DNA of 35,367 bases. It comes from Paracoccaceae bacterium (GTDB lineage: Bacteria > Pseudomonadota > Alphaproteobacteria > Rhodobacterales > Rhodobacteraceae). Location of the stretch: positions 1 to 35,367 of the forward strand of contig SKRW01000275.1 of the NCBI GenBank assembly GCA_007118295.1, written 5' to 3'. The translations under genes were made by a program, and so were the position numbers. The notes under the pieces are model-generated. The model saw nothing but the letters and a program-made list of their open reading frames with translations. It had not been told where the DNA came from and did not search any database. Shown here one piece after another: positions 15,240 through 32,698 of the stretch (its first letter is position 1; each line of letters opens with the position of its first letter).

Positions 15240-16754
15240 ATGCTGGATCTGACCTATGAGACCCCGACCCCAAAGGTCATTTCGGGCGCGACCGGCGATT
15301 GGGAACTGGTGATCGGTATGGAAATCCATGCGCAGGTCGCAAGTGAGGCCAAACTGTTCTCGGGCGCGTCAACCCGGTTCGGCGCAGAGCCCAATTCCAA
15401 TGTCGCCTTTGTCGATGCGGCGATGCCGGGCATGCTGCCAGTGGTCAATGAATACTGCATTGAACAGGCGGTGCGCACCGGGCTGGGGCTGAAGGCGCAG
15501 ATCAACCTTGTCTCGGCCTTTGACCGCAAGAATTACTTTTACCCCGATCTGCCGCAGGGCTATCAGATCAGCCAGCTTTACCATCCGCTGGTGGGCGAAG
15601 GCGAAGTGCTGGTGGACATGGGGCCGGGTGTCGCGCGGCTGGTGCGGATCGAGCGTATTCATGTGGAACAGGACGCAGGCAAGTCGATCCATGACATGGA
15701 CCCGAACATGAGCTTTGTGGACCTGAACCGCACCGGCGTCGCGCTGATGGAAATCGTCAGCCGCCCCGACATTCGCGGCCCCGAGGAAGCGGCGGCCTTT
15801 GTTACCAAGCTGCGCCAGATCCTGCGCTACCTCGGCACCTGCGACGGAAACATGCAGAACGGCAACCTGCGCGCGGATGTGAACGTGTCGGTCTGTCGCC
15901 CCGGTCAGTACGAGAAATATCAGGAAAGTCAGGATTTCGGCCATCTGGGCACGCGCTGCGAGATCAAGAACATGAACTCGATGCGCTTTATCCAGGCGGC
16001 TATCGAGTATGAGGCCCGCCGCCAGATCGCGATTCTGGAAGACGGGGGCAAGGTGGTGCAGGAAACGCGCCTGTTTGACCCGGACAAGGGCGAGACCCGG
16101 TCCATGCGGTCCAAGGAAGAAGCGCATGATTACCGCTACTTCCCCTGCCCCGACCTGCTGCCGCTGGAGATTGAACAGGCTTGGGTCGATGATATCGAAG
16201 CCACCCTGCCGGAACTGCCCGACGCCAAGAAAGCGCGCTTCATGGGCGATTTCGGGCTGACCGATTATGACGCCAGTGTGCTGACCGCCGATGTGGCACA
16301 TGCAGCCTTTTTCGAGGCCGTGGCGGCAGAAGCGGGCGATGGCAAGCTGGCAGCCAACTGGGTGATCAACGAGTTGTTCGGACGGCTGAAGAAAGATGCG
16401 CGCGAGATTGGCGGCAGCCCGGTTTCGGCGGGGCAAGTCGCGGGCATCATCCGGCTGATCCGCGCAGGCGATATTTCCGGCAAGATCGCCAAGGACCTGT
16501 TCGAGATCGTCTATACCGAAGGCGGCGACCCGGCGCAGATTGTTGAATCGCGCGGCATGAAGCAGGTCACCGACACTGGCGCGATTGAAGCGGCGGTGGA
16601 TGAGATCATCGCCGCCAACCCTGCGCAGGTGGAAAAGGCCAAGGCCAATCCCAAACTGGCAGGCTGGTTTGTGGGTCAGGTGATGAAGGCCACGGGCGGC
16701 AAGGCCAACCCCGCAGCCGTCAACCAGATGGTGAGTGCGAAACTGGGCTTGTGA
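15240..16754 (+). CDS. gatB: Asp-tRNA(Asn)/Glu-tRNA(Gln) amidotransferase subunit B
   Basis: Subunit B of the GatCAB amidotransferase. It phosphorylates and amidates mischarged Glu-tRNA(Gln) (and often Asp-tRNA(Asn)) in organisms lacking the matching synthetases. The 504 residues are full length. It shows the signature [28 protein letters not shown] near the start and EDAGKSIHD-like wording ([11 protein letters not shown]), with the helical and YqeY-like tail domains at the C-terminus ([18 protein letters not shown]). The frame opens at 15060, but ATG 15240 has a perfect AGGAGG eight bases upstream and the conserved N-terminus. gatA and gatC are not in the window. Confidence 0.97.
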
Positions 16755-16804: not shown

Positions 16805-16828
16805 GTGAGTATTTGGGGCAAGATGAAG
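16805..16828 (+). repeat. 3' dispersed element, copy A (after gatB)
   Basis: The 24-nt element begins GTGAGTATTT and ends GGCAAGATGAAG, with GG between. It lies 50 bases after gatB on the sense strand. Copy B at 25552-25575 differs only in those two middle bases. A looser copy follows truA. There is no coding potential; the function is unknown. Confidence 0.7.
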
Positions 16829-16986: not shown

Positions 16987-17154
16987 TTACTTGATCTTGC
17001 CTTCCTTGTATTCAACATGCTTGCGCACGACCGGGTCGTATTTGCGGACCGACATCTTTTCGGTCATGGTGCGGGCGTTTTTCTTGGTGACGTAGAAATG
17101 CCCGGTGCCTGCGGTCGAGTTCAGGCGGATCTTGATGGTGGTTGGCTTCGCCAT
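16987..17154 (-). CDS. rpmG: 50S ribosomal protein L33
   Basis: Small basic ribosomal protein of 55 residues: [48 protein letters not shown]. It is of the cysteine-free L33 type usual in alphaproteobacteria, so it lacks the zinc ribbon. The open frame extends upstream to 17289, but ATG 17154 has AGGAGAG at the right distance and gives the canonical N-terminus. It is monocistronic, with its own promoter and a strong terminator. Confidence 0.97.
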
Positions 17155-18811: not shown

Positions 18812-19212
18812 CAGGATGCGGATGGTCTGTAAGCCGGGTTCTGTTCCGGGGGCCAAGGCCCCCTTCGATGACCATTCATCTGGCCCTGCTGCTTGCGCGC
18901 AGGGTCTAGCTGCCAACCCGGACTTCGGGCCAAGGCAGCCCTGCGGGGATATCCATGTCGGATCACACCCGCGCGAAGTCCCTATTCGGCATTGCTCCGG
19001 GTGGGGCTTGCCGTGCCGGTCCGGTTGCCCGGTCCGCGGTGGGCTCTTACTCCACCGTTTCACCCTTGCCATGCGTGCATGGCGGTCTGTTTTCTGTGGC
19101 GCTTTCCCTCGGGTTTCCCCGGCCGGGCGTTACCCGGCACCCTTGCCTTGTGGAGCCCGGACTTTCCTCGCGGACCAGATGGCCCACGCGGCCATCCGAC
19201 CATCCGCATCAC
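18812..19212 (-). ncRNA. rnpB: RNase P RNA (class A)
   Basis: Catalytic RNA that removes 5' leaders from tRNA precursors. On the minus strand the conserved 5' block GAGGAAAGTCCGGGCTCCAC lies at 19169-19150. The CR V-region block, with GGGTGAAACGG and GTAAGAGCCCACCG, lies at 19070-19034. The 3' block CGGCTTACAGACC lies near 18840-18827. The P1 helix is perfect over 13 bp: GATGCGGATGGTC (19210-19198) pairs with GACCATCCGCATC (18827-18815). Length is about 400 nt, normal for the class. A GTTTTCTC stretch after P1 may end transcription. All open frames across this stretch are spurious. Confidence 0.97.
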
Positions 19213-24838: not shown

Positions 24839-25486
24839 ATGACCCGGAAATCGCACATCCTCCGCCGCAGCTTTCTTGCCATGTCGGGCAGCGCGCTGGC
24901 GCTCGGGGCCTGTGTCCCTGCGCTGACCCCGGCCCCGCCACCACCCGAGTTTGAACCCATCGACTATGCGTCACGGCGCGATGGCGGGCATACCCTGCGG
25001 GCGGTCAATCTGCAGGAGATTCCCGAGTTCCTGCACCGTCAGGTTGTCCCCTACCAGACCGAGGAAGCGCCGGGGACCATCGTGATCGAGAACCAGAACC
25101 GTCTGCTCTACTTGATTCTGGAGAATGGCTATGCCCTGCGCTACGGGCTGTCGGTCGGGCGCGAGGGGTTCGACTGGACCGGCGAGGCGACAGTTTATCG
25201 CAAGGCGCAATGGCCGACATGGACGCCGCCGCCCGAGATGATCGAGCGCGAGCCGCATCTGGAACGCTGGAAAGACGGCCAGCCCGGCGGGCCGACCAAC
25301 CCGCTCGGCGCGCGTGCGCTCTATCTCGAAAGCAATGGCCGCGACGAGGGATACCGCATTCACGGCACACCGGAATGGCGCTCGATCGGGCGCTTTGCCT
25401 CATCCGGTTGTTTTCGCATGCTGCAACAGGATGTGATCGACCTCTATGACCGCGTGCCGATCGGCACCCGCGTCGTCGTGGTATAA
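24839..25486 (+). CDS. L,D-transpeptidase (YkuD) lipoprotein, second of a tandem pair
   Basis: Paralogue of the preceding gene, 215 residues, sharing REGxxWxGxxxxYRxAxWPTWTP, PGGPxNPLGARALYL and HGTPE stretches. The signal is LRRSFLAMSGSALALGA-C25, again twin-arginine-like with a lipobox. H175 and catalytic C191 (SSGCFRM) are intact, so the copy should be active. The frame opens at GTG 24782; ATG 24839 is taken because AAAGG lies nine bases upstream and the signal starts there. The pair probably arose by local duplication. Confidence 0.9.
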   Translation: MTRKSHILRRSFLAMSGSALALGACVPALTPAPPPPEFEPIDYASRRDGGHTLRAVNLQEIPEFLHRQVVPYQTEEAPGTIVIENQNRLLYLILENGYALRYGLSVGREGFDWTGEATVYRKAQWPTWTPPPEMIEREPHLERWKDGQPGGPTNPLGARALYLESNGRDEGYRIHGTPEWRSIGRFASSGCFRMLQQDVIDLYDRVPIGTRVVVV

Positions 25487-25551: not shown

Positions 25552-25575
25552 CTTCATCTTGCCAGAAATACTCAC
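25552..25575 (-). repeat. 3' dispersed element, copy B (after the C26 peptidase gene)
   Basis: On the minus strand it begins GTGAGTATTT and ends GGCAAGATGAAG with CT between, so 22 of 24 bases match copy A. It starts 13 bases after the stop codon of the peptidase gene, in that gene's sense direction. Confidence 0.7.
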
Positions 25576-25588
25576 TTGCAGCGACGGC

Positions 25589-26362
25589 TCACGCGCTCAA
25601 CGCCCAAGGGGTGCGCCCGTCTGCCCAGGCCCGGACAGCCGCACCAAACGCCTCGAATAACGGGCGCGAGACCGGGTCCTGCCCGGCGCGCCATTCGGGG
25701 TGCCACTGCACCGACAGCGTGAACCCGCGCGCGCCCTCGACATACAGCGCCTCGGGGGTGCCGTCCGGCGCGTGGCCGTCGATCACGATGCGCGCGCCGG
25801 GGGTCTTGATCCCCTGCCCATGCAGCGTGTTGGTCATCACTTCGGGCGCCCCCATCAGGCGATGAAACACCCCGCCCTCGCTGAACCGCACCGGGTGACG
25901 CAGGGCGAATTTCTCTTCCAGCGTACCATCGGGTGGCATGCGGTGGTTCATCCGGCCCGGCAGATCGCGGATTTCCGGGTAGAGCGTGCCGCCAAGTGCG
26001 ACATTGACCTCCTGAAAGCCACGGCACACCCCGAAAAAGGGCTGGCCGCGCTCTACGCAGGCGCGCACCAGCGGCAGGGTGATGGCATCGCGCGCACGGT
26101 CAAAGGCCCCGTGGGCGGGGGTCTCGGGCTCGCCATATTCCTCGGGGTGGACATTGGGGCGTCCGCCCGTCAGCAGGAACCCGTCGCAGACATCCAGCAA
26201 CTCCTCGACCGACACCAGACGTGGGTCCGATGGGACCAGCAGCGGCAGGCATCCAGACACCTGCGACACCGCTTCGGAATTCATGGTGCCCCCGGCATGG
26301 GCCGGGTACTGGTCATTGATCAGGTGGGAATTGCCGATAATTCCGACAGTTGGTCTACGCAT
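25589..26362 (-). CDS. Gamma-glutamyl-gamma-aminobutyrate hydrolase family protein (peptidase C26)
   Basis: Class I glutamine-amidotransferase-like hydrolase of 257 residues, related to PuuD, which hydrolyses gamma-glutamyl-GABA. The catalytic triad is visible: C113 in GVCRGFQ, with H221 and E223 in QWHPEW. The N-terminal RPTVGIIGNSHLINDQ and GFLLTGGRPNVHPEEYG are typical of the family. No putrescine-pathway genes are adjacent, so the substrate is uncertain; other family members act on different gamma-glutamyl compounds. It lies downstream of the GNAT pair on the same strand. It is followed by copy B of the 3' element. Confidence 0.9.
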   Translation of the reverse strand: MRRPTVGIIGNSHLINDQYPAHAGGTMNSEAVSQVSGCLPLLVPSDPRLVSVEELLDVCDGFLLTGGRPNVHPEEYGEPETPAHGAFDRARDAITLPLVRACVERGQPFFGVCRGFQEVNVALGGTLYPEIRDLPGRMNHRMPPDGTLEEKFALRHPVRFSEGGVFHRLMGAPEVMTNTLHGQGIKTPGARIVIDGHAPDGTPEALYVEGARGFTLSVQWHPEWRAGQDPVSRPLFEAFGAAVRAWADGRTPWALSA

Positions 26363-31566: not shown

Positions 31567-32400
31567 ATGCCACGCTATGCACTGAAAATCGAATATGACG
31601 GCAGGCCGTTTTGCGGCTGGCAGGCGCAGGCTGGCCAGCCCTCCGTGCAAGAGGCCATCGAACGCGCCCTTGCCCGGCTGGAGCCGGACCTGCCCCGCAT
31701 CGCCGCAGCAGGGCGCACGGACACAGGCGTGCATGCCTCGGGACAGGTTGCGCATTGTGACATGATGCGCGACTGGGACCCGTTCCGCCTGAGTGCGGCA
31801 CTGAACCACCATCTGCGCCCCCTGCCCGTGGCGATTGTCGCCTGCGCGCGGGCCGAGGACAGGTTCCATGCGCGGTTTTCGGCGATCGAGCGGCGGTATC
31901 TGTTCCGGCTGATCAGCCGCCGCGCCCCCCCCGTGCTGGAGGCAGGGCGCGTCTGGCATGTGCGCCAGACGCTGGATCTGGCCGCGATGCAGGACGCCGC
32001 GCGCCATCTGCTGGGCCAGCATGATTTCACGACCTTCCGGGCCAGCCAGTGTCAGGCCGGCTCACCCGTCAAGACGCTGGACATGCTGCAGATCGAGGCG
32101 TTCGCCCTCCCGCATGGACAAGAGTTCCACTTTACCTTGCGCGCGCGGTCTTTCCTGCACAATCAGGTGCGCAGCGTCGTGGGAACACTGGAGCGGGTCG
32201 GCGCGGGGGCATGGCGTCCCGAGCAGGTGAAAGCGGCCCTCGATGCGCGCGACCGGACGGCCTGCGGACCCGTCAGCCCGCCTGACGGGTTGTATCTGAC
32301 TGGTGTCGGGTATGCGCAAGACCCCTTCGCTGTGCCCTTGGAAAAGGTGGGGGGGGCTGTCTGCCCCCCCCACTCCCCCACGATATTTGAGCAAAGATGA
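31567..32400 (+). CDS. truA: tRNA pseudouridine(38-40) synthase TruA, with extended C-terminus
   Basis: Converts uridines 38-40 of the tRNA anticodon stem to pseudouridine. It starts [19 protein letters not shown]; the catalytic aspartate is D52 in [24 protein letters not shown] and [15 protein letters not shown] are family stretches. A normal TruA ends at about GLYLTGVGY, residue 249. Here the frame runs 28 residues further, through a G/C hairpin (32347-32373) and a copy of the 3' dispersed element that supplies the TGA stop. The tail therefore looks like non-coding 3' DNA read as protein. It converges closely on the DUF1330 gene. Confidence 0.95.
32347..32373 (+). terminator. G/C hairpin at the 3' end of truA
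   Basis: A perfect 10-bp stem: GTGGGGGGGG (32347-32356), seven-base loop CTGTCTG, CCCCCCCCAC (32364-32373). It lies inside the truA reading frame's extra tail and just before the third copy of the dispersed element. No T-tract follows. It would form in the truA mRNA 3' end. Confidence 0.6.
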
Positions 32401-32404
32401 AAGA
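32380..32404 (+). repeat. 3' dispersed element, degenerate copy C (end of truA)
   Basis: The core GATATTTGAGCAAAGATGAAAG, spaced as 32382-32403, shares TATTTG, a G two bases on, and AAGATGAA with copies A and B but differs at several positions. The TGA inside GATGAA is the truA stop codon. It is again 3' of a gene in the sense direction. Confidence 0.45.
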
Positions 32405-32410
32405 CGCGCC

Positions 32411-32698
32411 TCAGGTGCTTTCTTCGACCACGACCAGATCGCGCTCGGCGGCGTCTTTCGCAAAACTCAGCGCTTCCTGATATTCGGGCGAATTATAGCA
32501 GGCCAGCGCGGCCTCGACCGATGGAAAGCGTGCCACGACATTGCGCGCGCGGTCACGCCCTTCGAGTTGTACATAGCGACCAGCGCGGGCGATGAACACA
32601 CCACCATGTGCCGCGATGGCACCCGTGGCGCGTTTGGCGTATTCGCCGTAAGCGTCGGGGTCGGTCACCTCGACATGGGCAATCCAAAGGGCTGTCAT
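32411..32698 (-). CDS. DUF1330 domain-containing protein
   Basis: Small soluble protein of 95 residues with the DUF1330 ferredoxin-like fold: [38 protein letters not shown] and [21 protein letters not shown]. The family has no settled biochemical function; it is related to dimeric alpha-beta barrel (ABM-like) proteins. Its ATG overlaps the alaS stop by four bases (ATGA), so it is translated together with alaS. It ends 10 bases from the convergent truA stop. Confidence 0.92.

Follow-up and report, generated by a model that had tools for sequence, protein, structure and literature searches.

Introduction

The bridge RNA of IS110 elements is carried in a transposon together with a recombinase, has two recognition segments and binds two different DNAs. 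In TnpB/TldR systems, as with Cas12-type guides, a short guide is identical to the strand that bears a constant 5′ motif, the target-adjacent motif (TAM); TnpB/TldR use sites in the host's own DNA and work with short guides, 6 nt having reportedly sufficed for TldR (PMC13418256). The present study concerns a short element at the 3′ ends of genes in a 35,367-nt stretch of Paracoccaceae DNA (the window; contig SKRW01000275.1, C59 in our numbering, of a 3.46-Mb draft genome in 344 contigs). Two dialects of the element are present, A (GAGTATTTNNGGCAAGATGAAG) and B (GGATATTTNNNCAAAGATGAA), and in the window's genome each is accompanied by one conserved RNA-like gene. We propose, at a probability of roughly 0.55, that a small guide RNA recognises the element as its target. 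The initial annotation, which described a dispersed sense-strand element, had missed this other half of the system, a trans-encoded small RNA that varies together with the element.

The arrangement resembles TnpB/TldR and Cas12-type systems in that a short guide is identical to the strand with a constant 5′ motif, TATTT in place of the TAM, and, as with TnpB/TldR, the sites lie in the host's own DNA. It differs from TnpB/TldR in that the guide is internal, between predicted stems, rather than at the 3′ end of the RNA, a further 3-nt recognition resides in a tetraloop, many sites occur per genome, and three free bases (NNN) separate motif and guide. In those plasmid stretches that come with gene tables, no tnpB-like gene is annotated next to the RNA. 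As in the IS110 bridge RNA there are two separate recognition segments, with matching sites beside the RNA's own gene, but in the present case a single site is matched by both of them; genes for recombinases or transposases lie near some plasmid copies of the RNA, none of them constant. Repetitive extragenic palindromic (REP) elements are likewise dispersed hairpin units at gene ends with several families per genome, as described in PMC12306157. Unlike in REP elements, the conserved part is non-palindromic, the hairpin sequence varies between copies and the families are matched by RNA. The transposases of REP elements are the RAYT proteins. DNA uptake sequences share with the element a short motif whose species dialects are uniform genome-wide, yet the present element is confined to gene ends, far rarer and partnered with an RNA. 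Intrinsic terminators place a hairpin and then a U-rich stretch at gene ends, an arrangement that the element may share, but lack the conserved dialect-specific 11-nt segment found here beyond the U-rich stretch. On this comparison its mode of action would be closest to that of a guide RNA with a TAM-like motif, but it matches the defining features of no named system tested. In the open-licence literature searched, including PMC5107571, PMC2864571, PMC8632094, PMC13418256 and PMC12306157, no description of the RNA or the motif was found.

Results

A site reads XYZ-TATTT-NNN-g1..g5-A-g7..g11, and the corresponding RNA carries a tetraloop G-XYZ and a segment g1..g5-G-g7..g11. The tetraloop consists of G and the first three bases of the site, and the segment is a copy of the final 11 bases in which G replaces the central A. 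The 110 RNA records, which are partly selected since some were found by searching for inverted copies, reduce to 52 distinct combinations of triplet and guide with eight triplets. Mismatches between the RNAs and their own flanks sum to 61, against a mean of 255 and a minimum of 215 upon permutation, and none of 10,000 permutations is as good. Counted by combination (n = 52), the fit is perfect in 33, has one mismatch in 14 and two or three mismatches in 2, and is lacking in 3. A site within 3 mismatches is held by 190 of the 220 flanks (119 perfect, 63 off by one guide base), a count that also admitted TTTTT in place of TATTT, and in 83 of the 110 records both flanks are within 3 mismatches of 14. 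The first loop base is G in 110/110 records and the central base of the RNA segment is G in 109/110, the central base of the site being A in 180/190. The near-constant G of the RNA faces T/U, the complement of the site's central A. Two separate RNA segments thereby co-vary with a single DNA site, and their order and polarity are compatible with pairing to the complementary strand. As expected of a guide RNA, the variable segment, with exceptions, matches its targets and co-varies with them between lineages.

TATTT lies 3 nt before the target in the counted flanks. Dialects with GAGTTTTT depart from this, GAGTTTTT replacing GAGTATTT in the dialects of G119, G143, G216 and G279 and at loci L269, L284 and L291. 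RNAs of G119, G129 and G216 carry GAGC or GACC instead of GATG after stem P2; the change at the GATG position together with GAGTTTTT perhaps reflects a contact of the internal loop with the constant TATTT.

The A-type RNA gene of the window's genome lies in locus L076 (contig C78) and the B-type gene in L235 (C95); a cobalamin riboswitch is found at L235 577–798 (minus strand), near the cobO-RNA-cobQ locus. It was opposed site copies about 140 nt apart that pointed to the RNA gene, which usually sits between two inverted copies with the target ends facing it. Opposed copies of AAGATGAA with a spacing of 128–158 nt occur in 46 of 246 family genomes, some of these matches looking like coding sequence, and the reversed control gives 1. 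The predicted RNA of ~85 nt consists of stem P1, stem P2 with the tetraloop GXYZ, the 11-nt segment and stem P3. Three of four examples folded in this way, with 5 bp in P1, 4 bp plus tetraloop in P2, an exposed segment and a strong P3; the RNA of L290 folds differently. Across 28 distinct sequences 96.8% of the P1/P2 cells are paired, and covariation is 0.437 as against 0.187 for shuffled (0/500) and at most 0.068 for slid alignments. Covariance models of Rfam gave no match at the RNA in 17 loci (E up to 5 or up to 1), and the matches in those loci lay elsewhere (a cobalamin riboswitch, a weak CcsR1 and others). A short reading frame in the RNA (ATG-ACC-GCG-CAA-GGT-GAA) was considered and rejected, since its start codon is lost in L284, L291 and L269 while P1/P2 covary.

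From the loci collected, 25 with the RNA and both sites were extracted, and they stand mostly at two syntenic places across genera. With neighbour names taken from representative genes, the RNA adjoins a GST-like gene in 14/25 and cobO in 7/25 (with cobQ on the other side in 5). No constant partner gene is present among the neighbours read, and no genome-wide search for a partner was made. A TTAACC/GTTAAC-like motif recurs by eye upstream of the RNA across genera, which we take to be perhaps its promoter or a CtrA-like site.

A search of the whole genome at up to 3 mismatches finds 82 copies of the A dialect (44 forward, 38 reverse) and none of the reversed sequence. The B dialect is present in ~32 copies, 24 exact and 8 with one mismatch, among 40 rows found. 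Full flanks are available for 81 A copies; among these, 18 core positions are near-invariant, and apart from a T directly before the core in 48/81 the flanking sequences are unrelated. Scanning 509,392 bases with a weight matrix gives 82 scores of at least 32 bits and none between 17 and 32, so no decaying A intermediates are seen.

According to a hexamer-based gene caller trained on the stretches retrieved, the 82 A copies comprise 32 in convergent gaps, 28 sense and 18 antisense in codirectional gaps, 1 in a divergent gap, 2 in coding sequence and 1 at a contig edge. Only 1 of 79 A copies with two classified neighbours lies in a divergent gap, against 62 of 304 gaps of at least 30 nt (p = 4e-7, the test using n = 80), a background that is biased because the stretches were chosen around copies. 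Of the 30 B copies examined, 12 lie in convergent and 3 in divergent gaps, 7 are sense and 6 antisense, and coding sequence and a contig edge hold 1 each. The proposal of a dispersed 3′-end element rather than chance therefore stands, and the proposal that it always reads in the sense direction falls. All three window copies do read so, but genome-wide 18/82 A copies are antisense to both neighbours, and the difference between 28 sense and 18 antisense copies in codirectional gaps is not marked (p = 0.18). All 18 positions are perfect in 27/28 sense, 17/18 antisense and 31/32 convergent A copies.

The conserved core is non-palindromic, and a hairpin bias is confined to its 5′ side. The 50 nt on the GAG/GGA side of A sites fold more strongly than the other side (-19.9 vs -15.1 kcal/mol, p = 5e-7), in the antisense class too, and for B sites the values are -25.1 vs -13.9 kcal/mol. 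In several A copies a hairpin and T-run end right at the site. By comparison of copies, the site is a directional unit at gene 3′ ends, consisting of a 5′ hairpin, XYZ, TATTT, NNN and the 11-nt target. At L063 4037–4089 two opposed A sites, separated by only 9 bp, make up an intergenic, near-perfect palindrome, and close opposed pairs like it are also present in L205 and G016 C96.

The correspondence was also examined in trans. The predicted site AGGTATTTNNNSCAAGAAGAA was written down before the genomes were searched, and the prediction largely held. The sequence was found in 39/246 genomes, with predicted copies numbering 113 in G247, 97 in G080, 60 in G204, 52 in G041 and 41 in G042, and 19 of the 22 genomes expected to hold 0–2 copies did so. 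RNAs read after the search fit the copies in G257, G058, G232 and G062 too.

Sites and RNAs also decay together. The B RNA of G016 has degenerate flanking sites, and the 37 B-like copies of that genome lie at 0/1/2/3 mismatches in 2/14/16/5 cases; the same genome keeps an A′ RNA and 61 A′ matches, the A′ dialect (GCAAGAAAATG) being A plus an apparent AAA insertion. G017, in which only a C-type RNA was found, has 28 A copies at 0/1/2 mismatches in 7/10/11 cases.

Among the 22 gatB loci read, two of them cut by contig ends, the convergent gatB-rpmG arrangement is found in 8 congeners. An A site stands behind gatB in G000, G001, G006 and G013, an A′ site in G004, G010 and G021, and none in G007. 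The RNAs found are A′ in G004, G010 and G021, A in G006 and G013, and only a GGA-type in G007, in whose genome neither an A-type RNA nor A sites were found. A site can therefore change dialect without moving, and any model has to account for this. In G007, two RNAs that agree in triplet and guide lie 5.5 kb apart (C15:27227 and C15:32784). Counted by eye, 19 of the 113 sites from named records have the same two flanking genes as a G000 site, almost all of them from close relatives. Replication polarity was likewise not apparent by eye, the A′ sites listed for the 3.77-Mb G021 contig lying on both strands throughout.

A covariance model of the RNA matches in 197/246 family genomes, with 1–7 matches each, in 22/25 genomes of the genus and in 0/9 genomes from other families; RNAs were also located in Paracoccus denitrificans and P. 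pantotrophus. Strings similar to the site, which the initial annotation had suggested for other Rhodobacteraceae, are indeed present there. Class-wide, 13/241 genomes match, 9 of them outside the family with a best E of 3e-8 to 9e-4, and the matches in G405 and G285 are unconvincing on reading. The RNA core is also found on plasmids of Paracoccus, Phaeobacter, Thalassococcus, Roseovarius, Azospirillum, Thiothrix, Nitrosococcus, Cereibacter, Leisingera, Sulfitobacter, Acuticoccus and Legionella, gammaproteobacterial plasmids included. A site within 2 mismatches lies 40–103 nt upstream of the RNA in 8/19 plasmid loci read. In two 50-kb stretches of the Paracoccus pantotrophus replicon pPAN3 there are 11 sites, of which 4 adjoin the two RNAs and 7 are solo (6 convergent, 1 sense), with a reversed control of 0, and one solo site occurs on a Thiothrix plasmid. 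It is only in Rhodobacteraceae that solo sites are shown to be widely dispersed. The RNA core pattern has 0 matches in viral contigs; phage records, among the ten matches listed, match only the P3 part (E 0.08), and E. coli genomes give no match to a Thiothrix copy of the RNA.

In the window, the 24-mers at 16805–16828 (plus strand) and 25552–25575 (minus strand) are identical except for two variable bases, as first described, and 100 dinucleotide shuffles contain no match. The conserved unit is 22 nt starting at G16807, the leading GT being unconserved. All three window copies sit in convergent gaps according to the gene calls (Table 1). That they lie past stop codons holds for the gatB copy, which starts 50 nt past the stop, and for the C26 peptidase copy, 13 nt past it, but the truA frame ends inside its copy. 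This last copy (core 32381–32401) had been taken for a looser third copy of the same element; it is a B-dialect site with one mismatch, and A and B scores do not intergrade. Models of TruA end at residues 244–256 of 277, and the frame reads ~20–30 residues beyond them, through the G/C hairpin and the B site (32349–32400). Elsewhere in the window, an Rfam scan finds a bacterial RNase P class A RNA at 18814–19207 (minus strand, E 1.4e-96).

Table 1. Sites and adjoining genes in the window
Feature	Position	Strand	Remark
A-dialect site GAG-TATTT-GGG-GCAAGATGAAG	16807..16828	+	3′ of gatB, between convergent gatB and rpmG
A-dialect site GAG-TATTT-CTG-GCAAGATGAAG	25552..25573	-	3′ of the peptidase C26 gene, convergent gap
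B-dialect site (c)GATATTT-GAG-CAAAGATGAA	32381..32401	+	includes the stop codon of the truA frame
G/C-run hairpin	32349..32371	+	on the 5′ side of this B site; many others have one too; seen in the sequence
gatB	15240..16754	+	gene before the first site; family confirmed
rpmG (ribosomal protein L33)	16987..17154	-	convergent with gatB
Peptidase C26 family gene	25589..26362	-	family confirmed
L,D-transpeptidase (YkuD) gene	24839..25486	+	convergent with the C26 gene
truA	31567..32400	+	last codons cross the hairpin and the B site
DUF1330 gene	32411..32698	-	convergent with truA

Discussion

A small guide RNA that recognises the element accounts best for these observations, and its parts deserve different degrees of belief. 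Bipartite pairing of the RNA with the strand complementary to the site is highly probable. The RNA would form 3 + 11 bp with that strand, with a central G.U/G.T wobble, and a constant factor would read TATTT, as a protein reads a TAM or a protospacer-adjacent motif (PAM). Recognition at the level of DNA is an evenly balanced proposition; DNA is a likelier target than one transcript because sense-only, antisense and convergent copies are equally intact. A boundary role at gene ends, which position, hairpin and U-rich stretch suggest, can be put forward only tentatively. In such a role the hairpin and the U-rich XYZ-TATTT would pause a polymerase arriving from the hairpin side, and an RNA bound to the template strand just downstream would stop read-through. 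The flanking sites, with their hairpin sides outward, would shield the RNA gene from transcription on both sides and may let the RNA regulate itself by feedback. The earlier guess of a role in termination or at mRNA 3′ ends may still be right. The fullest form of the proposal is more tentative still: a genome-wide RNA-guided DNA-recognition system, widespread in Rhodobacteraceae and present on alpha- and gammaproteobacterial plasmids, in which an ~85-nt RNA with a 3-nt loop and an 11-nt guide would address tens to more than 100 sites in its own genome and set, via a protein, a programmable transcription boundary.

Several observations weigh against a guide RNA. Three of the 110 records have no matching flank (L261, L388, L425), in L426, L433 and L418 the G/A difference at the centre is either lacking or shifted by one base, and the GAGTTTTT dialects of the four genomes named above are explained by neither loop nor guide. 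By position, 5/30 B and 4/82 A copies are divergent, in coding sequence or at a contig edge. By eye, many P3 stems have no U-run, so the 3′ end of the RNA is uncertain; the neighbours of the RNA gene differ between locations, and a protein partner was not found beside it. In the written prediction, G205 and G241 have only 6 copies of AGGTATTTNNNSCAAGAAGAA each, and three of the 22 genomes expected to be nearly free of it hold an excess (4 in G094, 26 in G266, 8 in G049); second RNAs fit the excess in G094 (AGG/GCAAGGGGAAG) and G266 (AGG/GCGAGGAGAAG), and the copies in G049 are without explanation. The RNAs read in G087, G220 and G048 (1/2, 1/4 and 3/4 of the RNA matches, respectively) misfit the 44, 38 and 12 copies there. 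G001, with 75 A copies in an assembly of 440 contigs, and G015, with 40 A copies in one that is 85% complete, yielded no A RNA; in G004, where A copies number 43, the RNA found is of the A′ type only. These assemblies are in 250–440 contigs. That G017 has 27 exact C-type copies is no proof of an intact C dialect, as decayed copies could not be listed at that threshold. Of 16 RNA matches outside the family, 7 have a site within 2 mismatches nearby, and in G395, from another family, sites occur only beside the RNA genes, with none further in 236,518 bases.

Alternatively, the RNA may act as an antisense regulator at the level of RNA, pairing with transcripts that bear the reverse complement of the site and trimming, terminating or stabilising them. 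Bacterial small RNAs commonly act on RNA, the same RNA-site covariation would be expected, and the order and polarity of the pairing segments suit the 3′ untranslated region of an mRNA. In many antisense or convergent arrangements the reverse complement starts 0–15 nt past a stop codon, 22/32 convergent and 16/18 antisense copies lying within 15 nt of the opposing gene's stop. Nevertheless, 28/82 copies are sense to both neighbours, so that no called gene transcribes the pairing strand, and these are as perfect as the others. The gatB copies, kept in the same arrangement in 7/8 congeners, are likewise sense to gatB, although read-through from rpmG could transcribe the other strand. We regard antisense action as unlikely, but serious enough to be kept in view.

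Rather less credit can be given to a selfish mobile unit without protein, in which site-RNA-site is autonomous and the solo sites are copies or landing scars. The RNA would guide a host or transposon enzyme to matching DNA, and the 3′ position would mark tolerated insertion points. Sites on both sides of the RNA in 83/110 records (partly selected so), cassettes on alpha- and gammaproteobacterial plasmids, 1–7 RNA matches per genome and the lack of solo sites in the G395 stretches are all in line with mobility. Such a unit would not be expected to stand at two syntenic places across genera, as most of the 25 RNA loci do, nor would its solo sites be under purifying conservation at positions shared within the genus.

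A protein that binds the site, as sense RNA or DNA, and is titrated by the RNA as an imitating sponge without base pairing would explain why the RNA repeats the site in the same sense. It is nonetheless very improbable. One genome can contain two dialects, each with its own RNA, and would then require a separate protein for each dialect; the loop carries only the site's first triplet, the intervening stretch differs, and the near-constant G for A, natural as G.U, is left unexplained. A purely cis 3′-end element, such as a terminator variant or processing site, would fit the hairpin and U-rich stretch 5′ of the site, but it would reduce the RNA match to a by-product and is strongly disfavoured by low-copy RNA genes that covary with dispersed sites, by their co-decay and by the prediction test. 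DNA uptake sequences lie near terminators in Neisseria, and species dialects are seen here, yet an uptake sequence is the least credible of all with 82 copies in 3.46 Mb, 2 of them in coding sequence, and an RNA with matching segments, for which we know of no counterpart among uptake sequences.

If the RNA guides recognition of the sites, as we favour, it would constitute a form of RNA-guided genome-wide self-marking distinct from CRISPR, TnpB and bridge RNAs, and one that has apparently escaped notice in a family as well studied as that of Paracoccus, Phaeobacter and Cereibacter. The simplicity of the code makes a swap of the loop or the guide a clean experiment. The joint dialect switching of ~100 dispersed sites and one RNA, and the protein reader of a 3 + 11 nt guide, would become testable, as would the way in which transcription units end in GC-rich alphaproteobacteria.
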